From Sporosarcina koreensis (GTDB lineage Bacteria; Bacillota; Bacilli; Bacillales_A; Planococcaceae): a stretch of DNA of 64,000 nt. The position numbers and the translations under genes are program-made. The stretch spans positions 1,057,774 through 1,121,773 of the forward strand of contig NZ_LN651337.1 of assembly GCF_000826145.2 (NCBI RefSeq), given 5' to 3'. The notes beneath the pieces were generated by a model. That model saw only the letters and a program-made list of their open reading frames with translations. It was not told the DNA's origin and did no database searches. Below, piece by piece: positions 19,998-48,312 of this stretch (position 1 is the stretch's first letter; each line of letters starts with the position of its first letter).

Positions 19998-20063
19998 TTG
20001 ACTCCCCCTTTCAATAACCGGTTGAAAATGACCGCTATACTTAACTATATCGAAAATCCTTCA

Positions 20064-20099
20064 CAATTTCTATACATAAACGCAATTTGTATAGAATTG
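20064..20099. promoter_or_regulatory. inverted repeat between ctaB and ctaA, candidate operator
   Basis: CAATTTCTATAC (20064-20075) and GTATAGAATTG (20089-20099) are reverse complements apart from one missing base; the inner arms TTCTATAC/GTATAGAA are perfect with a 13-base spacer. Not followed by a T run, so not a terminator. In B. subtilis these genes are under ResD; whether this is a ResD or other site is unknown. Confidence 0.5.
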
Positions 20100-20235
20100 C
20101 ACAGTCTTGCGAGGATTTATACAGTGCACCCTCTATAGTAAATCATTACTTGCTGCCGTTTGTGAAGTTATCGGGTCTTTTTTATGAACGTTTTGTGAAA
20201 AACTGGTCTGTCCTGCCGGTTCTCCCATTCCGCCA

Positions 20236-20264
20236 TTGTGTTTTAACACGGGATTCTCTATCAT
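20236..20264 (+). promoter_or_regulatory. probable ctaA promoter
   Basis: TTGTGT (20236-20241), 17-base spacer, TATCAT (20259-20264), 55 bases before the TTG start of ctaA. Confidence 0.5.
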
Positions 20265-20319
20265 TGAAAATTAGAGACCTGTCTGCTGGTCGATATTTAT
20301 CAAAAGAAGGTGCCTACGC

Positions 20320-21234
20320 TTGAAACGATATAATTATCTGAAGTGGTTTGCAGTCGCTGCGACAATCGGGATGCTGCTCATCATGCTGGGCGGTGCGCTC
20401 GTCACGAAAACCGACAGCGGAATGGGCTGCGGACGTCACTGGCCGGGCTGCAACGGTCAGCTCATCCCTGATGAGATCACGACCGAAGTGCTCATCGAAT
20501 TCTCCCACCGTCTCGTCACGGGTGTGGTCGGAATCCTGATCGTCGTGCTGGCCGTCTGGTCCTGGAAAGCGATCGGCCACGTGCGGGAAACGAAATTCCT
20601 CGCATTCATGGCGGTGTTCTTCCTGATACTCCAGGCTCTGATCGGGGCAGCGCAGGTAAAGTGGGGGCAGGGCGATTTCATCCTCGCCTTGCATTTCGGG
20701 ATTTCCCTTATTTCCTTTGCGGCTGTCCTGCTGCTCACCCTGCTCATATTCGAAGTCGATAAGAAGTTCGATGCCGACCGTCTGAAAGTCGGACGGACAC
20801 TCAAATTCCATACGATCGGCGTGACCGTCTATTCGTATCTCGTCATCTACACAGGCGCGCTCGTCCGTCACACGGAATCGAGTCTTGCCTGTGCGGATTG
20901 GCCGCTGTGCCGGAATGACCGCTTCGAACTGCCATCCACGCTGAACGAATGGGTCCAGATGGGCCACCGGACGGCTGCGGCACTCATCGTCGTGTGGCTC
21001 GCGTATATCGCGTTCCATGTCTATCGCAACTACCGTGATCAGAAAGTGCTCCTCTGGGGCTGGTCGATCGCCCTTCTGCTTGTGCTCGCACAGGCGGTCA
21101 CCGGCATGCTGTCCGTCTTCACACGGCTCAATCTGATAGTGGCGCTTCTCCATTCGCTCTTCATCACATTGCTGTTCGGACTGCTCACGTATATGATTCT
21201 GCTGTTGTCCCGCGTGCGTGTGCATAAGCCGTAA
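20320..21234 (+). CDS. ctaA: heme A synthase
   Basis: 304 residues from TTG 20320, seven bases after AGAAGGTG. Eight membrane helices. The conserved EFSHR (Glu-His of the EExxH-like motif in helix II, about residues 57-61), the extracellular cysteine pair CGRHWPGC (first loop) and CADWPLC (third loop), and [11 protein letters not shown] (His, second half) match Bacillus CtaA, which oxidises the heme O methyl to a formyl using the cysteine pair. Divergent from ctaB; single gene ended by a strong terminator. Confidence 0.96.
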
Positions 21235-21240
21235 GATGAA

Positions 21241-21277
21241 CAGCCGCCTGGTTTCTTGCACCAGGCGGCTGTTTTTT
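21241..21277 (+). terminator. terminator after ctaA
   Basis: AGCCGCCTGG (21242-21251) pairs with CCAGGCGGCT (21261-21270), followed by GTTTTTT. Confidence 0.88.
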
Positions 21278-21376
21278 GTAGGGGAATTACCTTCAGGGCG
21301 GAACCGGTTTATCCGGTAGTGCCTCTTGTGGCCAGCCGGCTATTTCACACGGTGCGGACCCAAGGAATCTGTGAAG

Positions 21377-21496
21377 TTATGAGCGGGATCTGCAGTTTAT
21401 GATCACTTTCGCCGGTTTATGAGCGGAATCCGAGATTTATGATTACTTTCCCGAGTTTATGAGCGAAAACGCCAAGTTATGATCACTTCGTGAGGA
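21377..21496. repeat. 20-bp-period repeat array 1 (six units, A-B alternating)
   Basis: Units begin every 20 bases with TTATGA: 21377, 21397, 21417, 21437, 21457, 21477. Odd units read TTATGAGCGGaatc (type A), even units TTATGATCACTTTc (type B; the fourth reads GATTACTTT). The first unit is preceded by TGTGAAG. A 20-base period is not a multiple of three and each unit carries TGA, so the array is not coding. Confidence 0.9.
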
Positions 21497-21635
21497 GAAG
21501 GCACCTTTGCCATGCAATTTCCACAGAAAATGCGGAGCGCAGCGGAGCCGACAAGCCAGGCTTTTACTGGCGCGCAGCGCACGGGGCAGGGTGCCAACAG
21601 GGCGCAGCAATCCGCCTGCAGGAGCCGGAAATTGT
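21497..21635. other. GC-rich noncoding module between repeat arrays
   Basis: About 140 bases without an ORF. CAATTTCC (21515-21522) is the exact reverse complement of GGAAATTG (21627-21634). Inside are a GCCAG/CTGGC hairpin (21555-21571) and a direct repeat GCGGAGC (about 21533-21547). No promoter or T-tract terminator was recognised. Confidence 0.5.
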
Positions 21636-21795
21636 GAAGTTATGAGCGGATACGCCGGTTTATGAGCGGAATCTGGTTTTTATGATCACTTTCCCGAGTT
21701 TATGAGCGGAATCCTCTTTTTATGATCACTTTCCCGAGTTTATGAGCGGAATCCGGCAGTTTATGAGCAAATCTCCGTATCGATGAGCCATATAT
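21636..21795. repeat. 20-bp-period repeat array 2 (eight units)
   Basis: TATGA occurs at 21641, 21661, 21681, 21701, 21721, 21741 and 21762, with a decayed unit (CGATGAGCC) at 21781. Order A A B A B A A A', where A is ATGAGCGGAatc and B is ATGATCACTTTCCCGAG. Like array 1 it opens with TGTGAAGTTATGAGCGG. Confidence 0.9.
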
Positions 21796-21806
21796 CTTTT
21801 CCATAG

Positions 21807-21843
21807 CCAAAAGACACCCGCCGAAATTCCGGCGGGTGTCTTC
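21807..21843 (-). terminator. terminator after pycA
   Basis: AAGACACCCGCCG (21811-21823) pairs with CGGCGGGTGTCTT (21830-21842); TTTT follows on the minus strand. Confidence 0.85.
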
Positions 21844-21847
21844 GTAT

Positions 21848-24800
21848 TCAATGCTCCAGCTCTATGAGGAGATCGCCTGTTGAAATTGCTTCCCCCGGCG
21901 AGACGTGGATTTCTTTCACGACGCCATCGTACGGTGTCTGGATGGTTGTCTCCATCTTCATCGCTTCGGTGATCAGCAGGTGCTGGCCGCGGCGGACGCG
22001 GTCGCCTTTCGACACGGCCACCTGGAGGACAGTGCCCGGCATCGTTGCGGCAATGTGCGCGTCGTTGCCCGGATCGGCCTTCTGCTTCTTCACGACATCC
22101 GTTTCGACACTGACGTCCTGGATGACCACTTCACGCGGCTGGCCGTTCAGTTCAAAGTAGACGATCCGCGTGCCGTCCGCCTGAGGTTCTCCGATGGACA
22201 CCAGTTTGACGATGAGGGTCTTCCCCTTTTCGATCTCGACTTCGATCTCTTCGCCGAGCCGCATGCCGTACAGGAACTCCGGCGTCTGGATGACCGAGAG
22301 ATTGCCGAAATCGTTATGGATCGCCGCGTATTCATCGAACACCTTCGGATACAGCGCAGACGCCAGAGCGTCTTTCATCGTCACCGGACGGTCCAATTTT
22401 TCGGCAAGGTCCTTTTTCACCTTTTCGAAATCGACTGCTTCCAGCAGTTCGCCCGGCCGCTCCGTCAGCGGCTTTCGGCCTTTTAGCACGACTTTCTGCA
22501 GTTCCTCGGGGAATCCGCCGTATGGCTGTCCGATATACCCCTCGAAGAATTCGATGACGGATTCAGGGAAGTCGATCGACTGTCCGCGCTCGAGCACCGC
22601 TTTCTCATCGAGATCATTCTGGACCATGAACAGCGCCATATCGCCGACCACTTTTGAAGACGGTGTCACTTTCACAATGTCCCCGAACAGCATGTTGACC
22701 CGGGAGAACATATCCTTGACCTCTTTCCATCGGTTTCCGAGCCCGACACCCTTCGCCTGCTGCTGCAGGTTGGAATACTGGCCGCCCGGCATTTCATGGA
22801 CATAGACTTCTGAATGAGGGCTGATCATCCCGCTTTCGAAATGGGAATAGTAGGCACGGACGTCTTCCCAATAGAAGGAGAGCTCCTCAAGTGCCTGGAT
22901 GTCTGTCCGGACACCCCGGCTGCCGTATTGCAGCGCATAATAGAGCGAGTTTGCGGACGGCTGGGAGGTCAGGCCGGACATGGCGCCGAGTGCCGTGTCG
23001 ACAATATCGACACCCGCTTCGATCGCCCGCTTGTACATGGCGATCCCATTGCCGCTCGTGTCATGTGAGTGGAGATGGATCGGAATGGCCACTGTCTCTT
23101 TCAGCTCGGAGATGAGCTGGTAGGCAGCTTCCGGCTTCAGCAGTCCGGCCATGTCCTTCAATGAAAGGATATGCGCGCCGGCGCTCTCCAGTTCCTTCGC
23201 CATCTCTTTATAGTAGGAAATCGAATATTTTGTCCGCATCGGATCGAGCACGTCGCCTGTATAGCAGAGAGCCGCTTCTGCGACCTTGTTCTCCTGGCGG
23301 ACGGCATCGATCGCCGTTTCCATGCCTTTGATCCAGTTCAGGCTGTCGAAGATCCGGAAGACATCGATGCCGGAAGAGGCCGCTTCCTTCACGAATTCCC
23401 GGATCACATTGTCCGGATAGTTTTTGTAGCCGACCGCATTGGCGCCGCGGAACAGCATTTGGAACAAGACATTCGGGATCTGCTCCCGCAGGCGTGCAAG
23501 CCGTTCCCACGGATCCTCTTTCAGGAACCGGTAGGACACGTCGAATGTGGCGCCGCCCCACATTTCGAATGAAAACAGATCCGGCATGAGACGCGCGGAT
23601 TCCGCTGCGATATTTGTCATGTCGGCCGTCCTGACCCGAGTGGCCAGCAAGGATTGGTGTGCATCCCGGAATGTCGTATCCGTCAGCAGGACATCCTTCT
23701 GGTCCTTGACCCACTCTGCCAGCCCTTCGGGACCCCGTTCGTCCAATATCTGTTTCGTTCCTGGCTTCGGCGGTACTGACAGATCCAGTTCCGGCTTGCG
23801 GGGAGTGCCATAGACCGGCTTCGAACCGCGGCCGATTCCCGGGAAGCCGTTGACGGTGATCGTCCCCAGATAGTTGAGCACTTTCGTTCCACGGTCTTTT
23901 TTAACTGGGAATTCAAATAATTCAGGAGCCTCGTCGATGAAGTTCGTCGTATAGTCCCCTGTTATGAAACTTTCATGCCGGACGACATTTTCAAGGAACG
24001 GGATGTTTGTCTTGATGCCCCGGATCCGGAACTCCTGCAGGTTCCTGTCCATCTTGGCCGCTGCTTCCCTGAATGTGGTTCCCCATGTCGATACTTTCAC
24101 GAGAAGGGAGTCATAATAAGGTGTGATGACGGCACCCTGGAAGCCATTCCCTGCATCCAGCCGGACACCGAATCCTCCTCCTGATCTGTATACTGACAGC
24201 TTGCCTGTATCGGGCATGAAGTCATTGAGCGGATCTTCCGTCGTGACGCGCGCTTGGATTGCATACCCGAACAAGGGGATCTGTTCCTGTTCCGGCACTG
24301 CAGCATGGCCTGTGTGCAGATTCCCGCCATCCGCTACGAAGATCTGCGTATGGACGATATCGATGCCGGTCACCATCTCGGTGATCGTATGCTCCACCTG
24401 GATACGGGGGTTCACTTCGATGAAGTAATACTCGCCATCTGCCACCAGGAATTCCACGGTTCCGGCGTTTATGTAACTGACATTCGCCATCAGCTTGACA
24501 GCCGCATCACAGATCTCCCGTCGTAATTCAGCTGAGAGCGAGATGGCCGGAGCGATTTCGACGAGTTTCTGATGCCGGCGCTGCACTGAACAGTCACGTT
24601 CATACAAATGTACAATATTTCCATGTGTATCACCGATGATCTGCACTTCAATATGCTTCGGATTGCGGATCAGCTTTTCGACATACACTTCATCGGAGCC
24701 GAATGCTGATTTCGCTTCCGACTTCGCACGGCTGAAAGCTTCCTGAACATCGTCAGCCCGCTCGACGATCCGCATGCCGCGTCCGCCTCCGCCAAGTGAA

Positions 24801-25285
24801 GCTTTGATGATGATCGGGTAGCCGTGGGCAGTACCGAACGCCCCCACTTCTTCCACAGAACGTACCGGTCCGTCCGTACCCGGAATGACCGGAATGCCCG
24901 CCCGGACAGCCTGCGTGCGTGCTTTGACCTTGTCTCCGAACATATCGAGATGACGCGAGGTCGGCCCGATGAAAATGATGCCTTCCTGTTCAAGACGTGC
25001 CGCAAATTCTTCGTGTTCCGCCAGAAAACCGTATCCGGGGTGGATGGCATTGGCACCGGACCTTTTTGCGATGTCGATGATCCCTTCGATATCCAGATAG
25101 GCATCGATTGGCTTCTTCCCTTCCCCCACCAGATAGGATTCATCTGCTTTATAACGATGGAACGACCCGCGGTCTTCTGCTGAATAGATACCGACTGTCG
25201 GGATCTGAAGCTCTGTACAGGCTCTGAAAATACGGATTGCAATCTCCCCGCGGTTTGCAACCAGAATCTTTTTGATCGATTTCAT
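21848..25285 (-). CDS. pycA: pyruvate carboxylase
   Basis: 1145 residues, the normal length of the single-chain enzyme. Order: biotin carboxylase (KKILVANRGEIAIRIFRACTE; ATP-grasp loop GGGGRGMRIV; EVNPRIQVEHTITEMVTGID), carboxyltransferase (LTDTTFRDAHQSLLATRVR; LHSHDTSGNGIAMY with metal-binding HxH; GGQYSNLQQQAKGVG), allosteric linker, and C-terminal biotinyl domain with ITEAMKMETT (biotinylated Lys). It makes oxaloacetate from pyruvate and bicarbonate. ATG 25285 follows AAGGTGGAA; a GTG five codons upstream (25300) is an alternative. Next to ftsW as in B. subtilis. Confidence 0.98.
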   Translation of the reverse strand: MKSIKKILVANRGEIAIRIFRACTELQIPTVGIYSAEDRGSFHRYKADESYLVGEGKKPIDAYLDIEGIIDIAKRSGANAIHPGYGFLAEHEEFAARLEQEGIIFIGPTSRHLDMFGDKVKARTQAVRAGIPVIPGTDGPVRSVEEVGAFGTAHGYPIIIKASLGGGGRGMRIVERADDVQEAFSRAKSEAKSAFGSDEVYVEKLIRNPKHIEVQIIGDTHGNIVHLYERDCSVQRRHQKLVEIAPAISLSAELRREICDAAVKLMANVSYINAGTVEFLVADGEYYFIEVNPRIQVEHTITEMVTGIDIVHTQIFVADGGNLHTGHAAVPEQEQIPLFGYAIQARVTTEDPLNDFMPDTGKLSVYRSGGGFGVRLDAGNGFQGAVITPYYDSLLVKVSTWGTTFREAAAKMDRNLQEFRIRGIKTNIPFLENVVRHESFITGDYTTNFIDEAPELFEFPVKKDRGTKVLNYLGTITVNGFPGIGRGSKPVYGTPRKPELDLSVPPKPGTKQILDERGPEGLAEWVKDQKDVLLTDTTFRDAHQSLLATRVRTADMTNIAAESARLMPDLFSFEMWGGATFDVSYRFLKEDPWERLARLREQIPNVLFQMLFRGANAVGYKNYPDNVIREFVKEAASSGIDVFRIFDSLNWIKGMETAIDAVRQENKVAEAALCYTGDVLDPMRTKYSISYYKEMAKELESAGAHILSLKDMAGLLKPEAAYQLISELKETVAIPIHLHSHDTSGNGIAMYKRAIEAGVDIVDTALGAMSGLTSQPSANSLYYALQYGSRGVRTDIQALEELSFYWEDVRAYYSHFESGMISPHSEVYVHEMPGGQYSNLQQQAKGVGLGNRWKEVKDMFSRVNMLFGDIVKVTPSSKVVGDMALFMVQNDLDEKAVLERGQSIDFPESVIEFFEGYIGQPYGGFPEELQKVVLKGRKPLTERPGELLEAVDFEKVKKDLAEKLDRPVTMKDALASALYPKVFDEYAAIHNDFGNLSVIQTPEFLYGMRLGEEIEVEIEKGKTLIVKLVSIGEPQADGTRIVYFELNGQPREVVIQDVSVETDVVKKQKADPGNDAHIAATMPGTVLQVAVSKGDRVRRGQHLLITEAMKMETTIQTPYDGVVKEIHVSPGEAISTGDLLIELEH

Positions 25286-25308
25286 TTCCACCTTCGGCAC
25301 GCCCTTTT

Positions 25309-46188: not shown

Positions 46189-46972
46189 ATTCGCGAAGAT
46201 CTATCTGGCGCTCGTGTTCGTCATCCTGTACGCCCCGATTGCGTACCTGATCTTCTACTCGTTCAACTCAGGCGGCAAGATGTCCCATTTCGACTCGTTC
46301 ACTTTGGAACATTACGCAGCGGTATTCGAGGACAAACGGCTGATCGGAATCGTGCTGAACACGGTCATCGTCGCCCTTCTGTCCGCACTGATTTCAACAG
46401 CGATCGGCGTGCTCGGCGCCATTTCCATCCATTATATGCGCAGCAAAGCGATGCGGAATGTCATGCTGTCCATGAACTCGATCCTGATGGTGAGCCCCGA
46501 TGTCATCATCGGCGCCTCGTTCCTGATCCTGTTCACATTGGTCGGCATCAAGCTCGGATTTGCATCCGTCCTGCTGTCCCATATCGCATTCAGCATCCCG
46601 ATTGTCGTGATCATGGTGCTGCCGAAGCTGCAGGAGATGAGCCCTACACTCATCGACGCAGCGCTCGACCTTGGCGCGACCCGGAAAGAGATCATGTCGC
46701 GGGTCATCCTGCCGTTCATCCAGCCGGGCATCTTTGCCGGGTTCTTCCTTGCACTGACCTATTCACTGGATGACTTTGCGGTGACGTTCTTCGTGACCGG
46801 CAACGGATTCTCGACATTGTCCGTTGAGATCTACTCGATGGCACGGACAGGTGTCACGCTGACCATCAATGCCCTATCCGGCCTGATCTTCGTCATTACA
46901 GCAGGGCTGATCCTCGGCTATTATGCACTGAAAAACCGGCCGAAAACGCCGGCTGCGGGGGTGAAGCGATGA
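46172..46972 (+). CDS. potC: spermidine/putrescine ABC transporter permease PotC
   Basis: 266 residues from GTG 46172, overlapping potB by 17 bases and preceded by AAAGGGGGATGG. Six membrane helices; EAA loop DAALDLGATRKEIMSRVILPFI. Second channel subunit. Confidence 0.94.
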   Translation: MQKNGKFAKIYLALVFVILYAPIAYLIFYSFNSGGKMSHFDSFTLEHYAAVFEDKRLIGIVLNTVIVALLSALISTAIGVLGAISIHYMRSKAMRNVMLSMNSILMVSPDVIIGASFLILFTLVGIKLGFASVLLSHIAFSIPIVVIMVLPKLQEMSPTLIDAALDLGATRKEIMSRVILPFIQPGIFAGFFLALTYSLDDFAVTFFVTGNGFSTLSVEIYSMARTGVTLTINALSGLIFVITAGLILGYYALKNRPKTPAAGVKR

Positions 46973-48042
46973 AAGCGCTCATACGCGGCGCGGCATTGAT
47001 TGCCGCAACAGCCGTCATTCTCATGATCGTCAACGCACAGCTCGCAAAAAGCGGCTCCCAGGCGGGCGGCAACACGCTCACCGTCTACAACTGGGGCGAA
47101 TATATCGATCCCGATCTCATCAAACAGTTCGAACAGGAGACCGGCATGAACGTCATCTATGAAACGTTCGACTCGAACGAAGGGATGATGGGGAAGATCG
47201 AGCAGGGCGGCACTTCCTACGACATCACGGTCCCATCGGAGTACATGGTGGAGATGATGCGTGAGAAGGACCTCCTCATCCCGCTCGATTACAGCAAGAT
47301 CCCGAACTTCAAGAACATCGATCCGTATTTTACGGACCTGCCGTTCGATCCGGACAACAAGTATTCCATCCCCTACTTCTGGGGCACGCTCGGCATCGCC
47401 TATAACCCTTCCCTCCTGGATGGGCAGACATTCGAAAGCTGGGACAACCTGTGGGACCCTTCCCTGAAACAGGAAGCGGTCCTCGTCGACAGCGCCCGCG
47501 AAGTGATCGGGATGGGATTGAACTCCCTCGGCTATTCACTCAACTCGACAAACCCTGCCGAACTGCGCGAAGCGACGGACAAGCTGAAGACGCTGAGCCC
47601 CAACATCAAAGCGGTCATCGGTGACGAAGTGACCCAGATGATGATGAATAACGAAGCGGCCGTATCGCTGATCTGGTCTGGCCAGGCGGCGGATATGATG
47701 TCCGAAAATGAGGACATCACCTATGTTGTGCCGGAAGAAGGGTCCAACTTATGGTTCGACAACATCGTCATCCCGCGTACGGTGAAGAACATCGACGGTG
47801 CCTATGAATTCATCAACTTCATGCTGCGTCCTGATGTGGCCGCGCAGAATGCCGATTATGTCGGCTACTCGACGCCGAACATGAAAGCCCTCGATCTGAT
47901 GGATCCTGAAGTGACGTCTGATGAACGCTATTATCCGGACGAGCAGGCGCGCGAGCATTTGGAAGTATACAAAGATCTCGGCCTGGAGATGCTCGGCACG
48001 TATAATGAGCTGTTCCTCGAGTTCAAGATGGATATGAAGTGA
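46969..48042 (+). CDS. potD: spermidine/putrescine-binding protein PotD
   Basis: 357 residues. Polyamine-binding type 1 periplasmic protein: LTVYNWGEYIDPDLIKQFEQ, then YDITVPSEYMVEMM, FWGTLGIAYNPSLL, and AAVSLIWSGQAADMM (substrate-contact region). The N-terminal helix ALIAATAVILMIVNAQLA has no cysteine, so there is no lipobox; it is likely held by an uncleaved membrane anchor. ATG overlaps the potC stop (ATGA). Ends at a terminator. Confidence 0.94.
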   Translation: MKALIRGAALIAATAVILMIVNAQLAKSGSQAGGNTLTVYNWGEYIDPDLIKQFEQETGMNVIYETFDSNEGMMGKIEQGGTSYDITVPSEYMVEMMREKDLLIPLDYSKIPNFKNIDPYFTDLPFDPDNKYSIPYFWGTLGIAYNPSLLDGQTFESWDNLWDPSLKQEAVLVDSAREVIGMGLNSLGYSLNSTNPAELREATDKLKTLSPNIKAVIGDEVTQMMMNNEAAVSLIWSGQAADMMSENEDITYVVPEEGSNLWFDNIVIPRTVKNIDGAYEFINFMLRPDVAAQNADYVGYSTPNMKALDLMDPEVTSDERYYPDEQAREHLEVYKDLGLEMLGTYNELFLEFKMDMK

Positions 48043-48051
48043 TGTATGCAG

Positions 48052-48082
48052 AGCAGGAGCCCGCGGGCTCCTGCTTTTTTTT
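48052..48082 (+). terminator. terminator after potABCD
   Basis: AGCAGGAGC (48052-48060) pairs with GCTCCTGCT (48067-48075) followed by TTTTTTT. Confidence 0.88.
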
Positions 48083-48138
48083 GTCCGGGGTAGTCGGAGT
48101 TTGTGCACTGGCTGTTAGAAGTGCGATGGATAGTGTGA
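48083..48138. other. spacer between pot terminator and repeat array 3
   Basis: Short unannotated stretch with no ORF or hairpin. With array 3 and about 85 bases of MFS leader it makes up the roughly 318-base gene-free interval. Confidence 0.5.
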
Positions 48139-48312
48139 AGTTATGAGCGGTTTTGTGAGGTTTATGAGCGGAATTTCAAGTTTATGATCACTTTTGCCGG
48201 TTTATGATCACTTTCTTTGATTTATGATCACTTTCCCCGTTTTATGATCACTTTCCCGGGTTTATGATCACTTTCCTTAATTCATGATCAAAACTGCCGG
48301 ATTGCTGATCAG
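48139..48312. repeat. 20-bp-period repeat array 3 (about nine units)
   Basis: TATGA at 48142, 48163, 48183, 48203, 48223, 48243 and 48263, then CATGATCA at 48283 and a decayed CTGATCAG near 48305. Order A A B B B B B B' B''. It opens with GTGTGAAGTTATGAGCGG, the same head as arrays 1 and 2, and ends about 90 bases before the MFS start. Confidence 0.9.

Follow-up and report, generated by a model that had tools for sequence, protein, structure and literature searches.

Phased arrays of a 20-bp repeat, mostly at gene 3' ends, in Sporosarcina koreensis and other genomes

Results

Three phased arrays in the window

The window, the 64,000-nucleotide stretch of S. koreensis DNA analysed here, contains two tandem repeat arrays between ctaA and pycA, two genes that both turn their 3' ends towards the arrays. 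The left neighbour ctaA (20320..21234, + strand) encodes a COX15-CtaA protein (PF02628, E 7.8e-47; an NCBIfam search of the product gave no match). The right neighbour pycA (21848..25300, - strand) encodes pyruvate carboxylase (TIGR01235, 1871 bits), in agreement with the location given in a preliminary description of this DNA. A probable terminator follows each gene: an inverted repeat with a T run after ctaA (21239..21273, + strand) and an inverted repeat after pycA (21811..21842, - strand). Both came from an inverted-repeat search and are unlisted by a consensus terminator scanner.

Array 1 (21377..21496, + strand) consists of six 20-bp units of two types in the order A B A B A B, starting at 21377, 21397, 21417, 21437, 21457 and 21477. 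Array 2 (21640..21780, + strand) holds seven units in the order A A B A B A a, with starts at 21640, 21660, 21680, 21700, 21720, 21740 and 21761. The preliminary description had fourteen units, each beginning with TTATGA, in strict 20-bp phase. The word is indeed intact at the start of every one of the 13 intact units (6 + 7); the fourteenth would be a degenerate slot at approximately 21781 (TCGATGAGCC). Ten of the 11 steps are 20 bp, and the final step of array 2 is 21 bp. Both arrays share the opening described earlier, TGTGAAG-TTATGAGCGG, in which TGTGAAG forms a leader (21370..21376 and 21633..21639, + strand).

A third array, absent from the earlier account, lies at 48141..48301 (+ strand) behind its own TGTGAAG leader (48134..48140, + strand). 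It has seven intact units, A A B B B B B, and one degenerate unit, with a first step of 21 bp. To its left are a solute-binding protein gene (46969-48042) and a terminator-like site after that gene (48050..48077, + strand); an MFS gene starts to its right at about 48401. Array neighbours were annotated in the window, where they are these two genes, ctaA and pycA. When the window was simulated 200 times with a first-order Markov model, no surrogate contained two TTATGA words 19-21 bp apart, which excludes a chance origin of the arrays. The window has 21 TTATGAKC words, 19 of them in arrays, where 3.5 would be expected overall.

A genome-wide family with a fixed core and step

The S. koreensis genome carries at least 58 arrays with 415 units. 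They come from 50 regions retrieved for pattern matches or blastn matches, including those of the leader and of module M (see below), and 49 of these regions hold arrays; the number is a lower bound because the count covers only these regions. The one region without an array (L365) had been taken for a weak module M match. TTATGA pairs with gaps of 8-38 bp number 382 genome-wide (205 forward, 177 reverse), whereas the reversed pattern gives 4 (3 forward, 1 reverse). The preliminary description had named confinement to this locus and irregular spacing elsewhere as signs against a functional array, and neither was found.

The core of the array is T-TTATGA-(G/T)-C, and the remainder of the unit is variable. 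TTATGA is intact in 400 of the 415 units, as scored by an array finder that tolerated one mismatch inside a chain; the C at position 8, not required by the finder, is present in 99%. Among 357 steps, 283 are 20 bp, 70 are 21 bp and 4 are 19 bp. Arrays often open with a 21-bp step (42 of 58), and 229 of 241 inner steps are exactly 20 bp. Units fall into the types TCA (198), GCG (154), other GC (53), other TC (6) and other (4), and neighbouring units switch type more often than by chance (215/351, p 3e-5). Most arrays have 7-8 units, about 140-160 bp. The longest, of 12 units (L361 1992-2233), sits in a divergent gap, contrary to the rule for gene context described below.

Leader and module M

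GTGAAG or GTAAAG precedes 41 of the 58 S. koreensis arrays. Searched without mismatch, the leader pattern occurs 41 times in this genome, 39 times in the sister strain G253 and not at all in the sister species G021, which has 260 four-unit array matches. No leader was seen by eye before the arrays of named Sporosarcina species.

Module M is a separate repeat of 45-60 bp with an imperfect hairpin (21527..21571 in the window, + strand; nhmmer E 9.7e-13). It has 23 nhmmer matches in the 50 S. koreensis regions, where a stricter initial regular expression had found it at only 2 of 58 arrays. An array lies downstream on the same strand in 22 cases, and one match is elsewhere; 20 of the 23 end 14-96 nt before the first array unit, and two end at 231 and 383. 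Weak relatives (E 0.012) were present in two loci of Sporosarcina sp. D27. At five loci (L355, L358, L333, L351 and L324) the entire element of module M, leader and array is tandemly repeated at a distance of approximately 290-340 bp, and at L333 one tandem copy is missing from strain G253.

Position relative to genes

Gene calls were codon-score calls made in this analysis. Among 153 arrays from S. koreensis and the named loci, none has half or more of its length inside a called ORF, and none of 40 arrays from the genus g153, which belongs to another family (see below), overlaps one by more than 40 bp. This bears out the earlier claim that the repeats are not protein-coding. Reverse-strand 'SDHK/KVIIN' peptides from such arrays might be expected in databases, but one such query returned no homologue.

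The arrays favour gaps between converging genes. In S. koreensis the convergent, co-directional and divergent array gaps number 24/21/2, against 2/15/15 for other gaps (Fisher p for convergent 2e-5). The counts are 37/24/2 against 9/80/48 in other Sporosarcina (p 3e-15) and 22/11/0 against 0/17/8 in g153 (p 4e-8). The control gaps were other gaps of at least 100 bp within the loci chosen for their arrays, and thus represent neighbouring gaps rather than the whole genome; loci L177 and L191 were excluded from the Sporosarcina counts, both here and for the orthologous gaps. Only 4 of 143 array gaps over the three sets are divergent. Different counting rules give 3 divergent of 48 S. koreensis arrays instead of 2 of 47. 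No DNA-binding partner stood out by eye among the genes at divergent gaps. Array orientation is unbiased with respect to gene direction (++ 11, -- 10).

A hairpin-plus-T finder detected a probable terminator separating the gene end from the array on 23 of 36 left sides and 22 of 34 right sides (45/70), against 3/36 in a control inside genes. Where such a probable terminator precedes, the arrays probably lie outside the transcripts. In the named Sporosarcina loci, inspection by eye of arrays more than 60 bp from the locus end found purine-rich DNA to the left and pyrimidine-rich DNA to the right, a skew that may follow the converging transcripts. A hand count places 14 of 39 G253 array starts within 6.4% of the chromosome (G253:C1:2087169-2282518, corresponding to S. 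koreensis C4 at about 1.64-1.84 Mb).

Arrays recur at the same places in different species. Among gaps with both flanking genes matched between S. koreensis and the named loci, 20 hold an array in both, 49 in neither, 1 in S. koreensis only and 0 in the other species only. The 20 shared gaps represent 9 distinct S. koreensis gaps, and 20 of 63 array gaps of other species coincide with S. koreensis ones. Both samples were centred on arrays, which limits the discordant gaps that can be seen but would not by itself place arrays in matching gaps. Seven array gaps, matched by eye, recur in at least two g153 genomes, and no Sporosarcina array gap has the two flanking genes of any of the 33 g153 array gaps. 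The gap between ctaA and pycA itself is variable: it holds 13 units in S. koreensis, 2 in G253 and none in G021, so that this copy is dispensable. Arrays with a spelling of their own occupy it in five other genomes (G007, G009, G019, G242 and G248).

Changes between two strains

All 31 array regions from G253, which were picked by the leader, match an S. koreensis array region, and 17 of the 50 S. koreensis regions have no counterpart among those 31; because the presence of arrays guided the choice of strain and species loci, they are a poor test of the loss of whole arrays. At non-rearranged loci the array indels in G253 are +40, +40, +37, -40, -61, -338 and -363 bp, plus two 1-bp changes. 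Every larger indel except the +37 leaves the units in register. The two 1-bp changes concern two of the four 19-bp steps in S. koreensis, which are 20 bp in G253. Between these two strains, array length changes through slippage or recombination that mostly keeps the register.

Substitutions were counted in 30 of 33 locus pairs, omitting L347, L350 and L354, which are rearranged between the strains. There were 4 in 1600 core sites, 43 in 2977 other unit positions and 814 in 114599 sites outside the arrays. Five loci with at least three changes each account for 35 of the 47 unit substitutions, some of them with quiet flanks; L341 has 11 changes in 152 array sites and 4 in 3849 flank sites. Such clustering points to unit exchange between arrays, by which spacers would pass from one locus to another. 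With the five loci removed, 12 changes remain, 2 of them in the core (p 0.15); this is not significant, so selection on the core over this short term is suggested and not more.

Occurrence in other genomes

The preliminary description proposed a search of other Planococcaceae for the 20-bp-spaced pattern. Of 261 genomes from the family, 22 carry a four-unit TTATGA pattern, and 20 of these 22 belong to the genus, which is represented by 68 genomes. At least 147 matches each were counted in the ten genomes with a PycA tail 85% or more identical to that of S. koreensis; the others have at most 67, and most have zero. The arrays are massively present in one Sporosarcina clade. In a scan of named genomes, 79 of 80 loci among the matches listed (at least 92 stretches) were from Sporosarcina and one was on a contig labelled as an archaeal MAG. 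Matches in genomes of two other genera of the family (G067, G186) do not rise above the reversed control, which in that search matched four genomes. Three stretches in these two genomes (G186:C4:81146, G186:C11:838147 and G067:C6:245222) have TTATGA at 20-bp steps with different following letters, and the unit at the two G186 loci is identical.

A stricter pattern that includes K and C was searched in a class-wide sample of 398 genomes. It matched three, S. koreensis, G031 and G612 (reversed control 0), and G612 belongs to a different family from Sporosarcina. A three-unit pattern was found in 14 of 18 genomes of its genus, g153, and in none of 16 genomes of the three sister genera (reversed control 0). 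In the order of S. koreensis, which comprises the same 261 genomes as the family, the identical pattern matched 21, 20 from this genus and G077 once. The g153 arrays are mostly pure A or pure B, and their spacers are unrelated to those of Sporosarcina. Their steps are 20 bp in 198 of 206 cases and 40 bp in 6, and a T precedes the core in 98%. The pattern itself required TTATGA, K, C and the 20-bp step, so the independent observations in g153 are the number of matches, the reversed control, the preceding T and the steps beyond three units.

A blastn search of phages with array 2 gave no match, and viral contigs searched with one pattern gave a single match to an unrelated 10-bp repeat, a tandem run of ATAAATGCTC in IMGVR_UViG_3300046804_004006 (L366 2580-2660). 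Among the titles listed from an open-access library, none points to this repeat family, and papers that contain the literal repeat words look, by title, like chance matches in primers.

Spacer composition and predicted DNA shape

Positions 10-13 of the unit are more AT-rich than positions 14-18 in 165 of 170 arrays (47/47, 93/94 and 25/29 in the three sets), counted over arrays that are not independent within one genome. The AT block falls one helical turn after the core. The spacer is thus free in sequence and constrained in composition. Two static wedge models predict more bending for the arrays than for arrays with permuted spacer columns. In an Olson-type model the arrays bend by 32-47 degrees per 100 bp, permuted spacers by 18-24 and flanks by 17. 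The BMHT91 model gives the same direction, more weakly, and in it the other Sporosarcina arrays equal the flanks in absolute curvature (37.8 against 37.7). The predicted bend would be larger at a 21-bp step, and a 10-bp Fourier component is significant in one of the three sets (p 0.03, 0.09 and 0.15). The 20-bp step falls short of two turns at about 10.5 bp each; as reasoned for nucleosomal DNA, this favours a left-handed path.

Discussion

Comparison with known repeat systems

In plasmid iterons, repeats of 17-22 bp follow each other directly at roughly two helical turns, and the array repeat falls within this length. The arrays differ in lying in about 50 chromosomal gaps, and array 2 as a query had 0 matches among 72,556 plasmid records (blastn, 'distant'). 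A CRISPR array was considered and rejected: CRISPR repeats are 24-48 bp with unique spacers of similar length, against the fixed 8-9 bp in a 20-bp unit found here.

REP and BIME elements of enterobacteria and Pseudomonas are described as many dispersed intergenic copies, frequent in convergent gaps, with a proposed role in chromosome organisation (PMC1525189, PMC3733652, PMC6379681). The arrays are likewise dispersed, intergenic and frequent in convergent gaps. However, REPs are palindromic and alternate in orientation within BIMEs, whereas the array units are head-to-tail at a strict 20-bp step. The arrays resemble BIMEs in place and number, yet they are not BIMEs because the unit is non-palindromic: the window arrays contain no inverted repeat of 12 nt or more, and B units have only the 6-bp TGATCA.

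BOX elements of Streptococcus pneumoniae have end modules around a variable tandem run and are over-represented between convergent genes (PMC3049150). The arrays appear composite as well, with module M and the leader on the left, and they are also biased towards convergent gaps. In contrast to BOX, they lack visible terminal inverted repeats (58 arrays, by eye) and a conserved right end (by eye), their 20-bp unit has a fixed core and a free spacer, and their sites recur between species. No target duplications were seen by eye at the 58 arrays. The nearest empty site, the gap between ctaA and pycA in G021, shows no clean insertion. The TAACTGA direct repeats of Beggiatoaceae and others are intergenic and occur in several lineages; in the genome studied most of them are found just upstream of start codons, and they have a proposed role in translation (PMC4679880). 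They share with the arrays the direct repetition of a short fixed word in the intergenic DNA of several lineages, and differ in that the arrays lie at gene 3' ends and are phased at 20 bp.

Interpretation of the arrays

We tentatively read the arrays as putative phased binding sites for a protein with a DNA-bending or architectural role. Located at gene 3' ends, they would act as a boundary between converging units, and we give this reading a probability of roughly 0.42. A phased protein-binding array was among the roles first proposed, and the strict step and conserved core of these non-coding arrays are consistent with it. The protein would read T-TTATGA-K-C once per two helical turns. Two turns of B-DNA take slightly more than 20 bp, so each site would be rotated a little against the one before, and a bound array may wrap as a shallow left-handed superhelix. 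Such a nucleoprotein block could keep converging transcription units apart, either because it halts read-through or because it takes up supercoils. The fuller version of this proposal, taken as a whole, seems unlikely. In it, arrays of 60-700 bp would be wrapped in a left-handed, nucleosome-like manner and insulate converging genes. A chromosome would have dozens of such blocks, and in two or more Bacillota families these would stay at orthologous gaps on the time scale of a genus, with the spacers free to drift.

The strongest rival, to which we give less than even odds, is a selfish or neutral dispersed minisatellite of BOX or MITE kind. It would have spread long ago, been copied by gene conversion and slippage, and survived downstream of genes where harm is least. 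The composite build of module M, leader and array, the tandem duplication of whole elements, a leader so species-specific that it is missing from G021, and the gains and losses of units between strains, among them the loss of one of two tandem arrays at L333, are all as expected of such a repeat. Tolerated parasites such as BOX, RUP and SPRITE also show a convergent bias (PMC3049150), so this bias alone cannot separate the two readings. Such a repeat fits less well with the observation that no recent insertion was seen, all 31 G253 regions having S. koreensis counterparts, and with array ends where no inverted terminal repeats were seen by eye. Two further observations sit poorly with it: arrays occupy orthologous gaps in species with differing units, and a second family shows the core and step together with spacers of its own. 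We favour the architectural-protein reading over a tolerated repeat because core, step and place are conserved together while the spacers vary freely. An improbable alternative is that the arrays are strong DNA gyrase sites, a Gram-positive counterpart of BIME-2, where converging transcription accumulates positive supercoils and phased AT/GC blocks wrap gyrase. The convergent location, the usual length of 7-8 units and the AT/GC alternation inside the unit suit this idea. Against it, a fixed core of 8-9 bp is not expected, and the arrays are found in few genera, whereas gyrase is, to our knowledge, universal. One study describes BIME-2 as gyrase sites and a gyrase motif with periodic GC changes (PMC6379681); the period given there is 10.75 bp, against 10.0 bp here, which fits left-handed and not gyrase-type right-handed wrapping.

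Other roles have still less in their favour. An RNA with repeated hairpins had been suggested at the outset; such an element could be a transcribed repeat with a folding or sponge function, or a terminator acting in both directions, and we consider it very improbable. The module M hairpin does show paired changes by eye (GACAAG/CTTGTC and GGCAAG/CTTGCC), and copies of UUUAUGAGC appear able to pair via G-U (by eye). The arrays themselves give six folds in the window with z from -1.78 to +0.84. An Rfam scan of window positions 20000-23000 matched no family and gave one sub-threshold match (21166-21275) outside the arrays. Terminator-like matches occur inside 5 of 50 array stretches, and a probable terminator separates the array from the facing gene end in 45 of 70 cases. 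The suggestion of a replication site does not agree with dozens of loci per genome, nor with 17 of 39 G253 array starts running with replication (a hand count that assumes that the contig begins at oriC). The TGT start and the repeats of approximately 20 bp also recall the end arrays of a dead transposon, with TnsB- or MuA-type sites, and the GTGAAG or GTAAAG ahead of most S. koreensis arrays fits this idea. This is scarcely credible for a leader missing in G021 and not seen before the named-species arrays, and no inverted partner end was seen.

Conclusions

If the arrays are neutral, they still offer a clear example of concerted evolution across a genome at fixed places, and they can serve as a marker for strain typing. 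If instead they are seats of an architectural protein, they would be ready-made and countable boundary sites in about 50 gaps per genome. In that case the natural length variants between near-identical strains would help to ask how converging units are separated.
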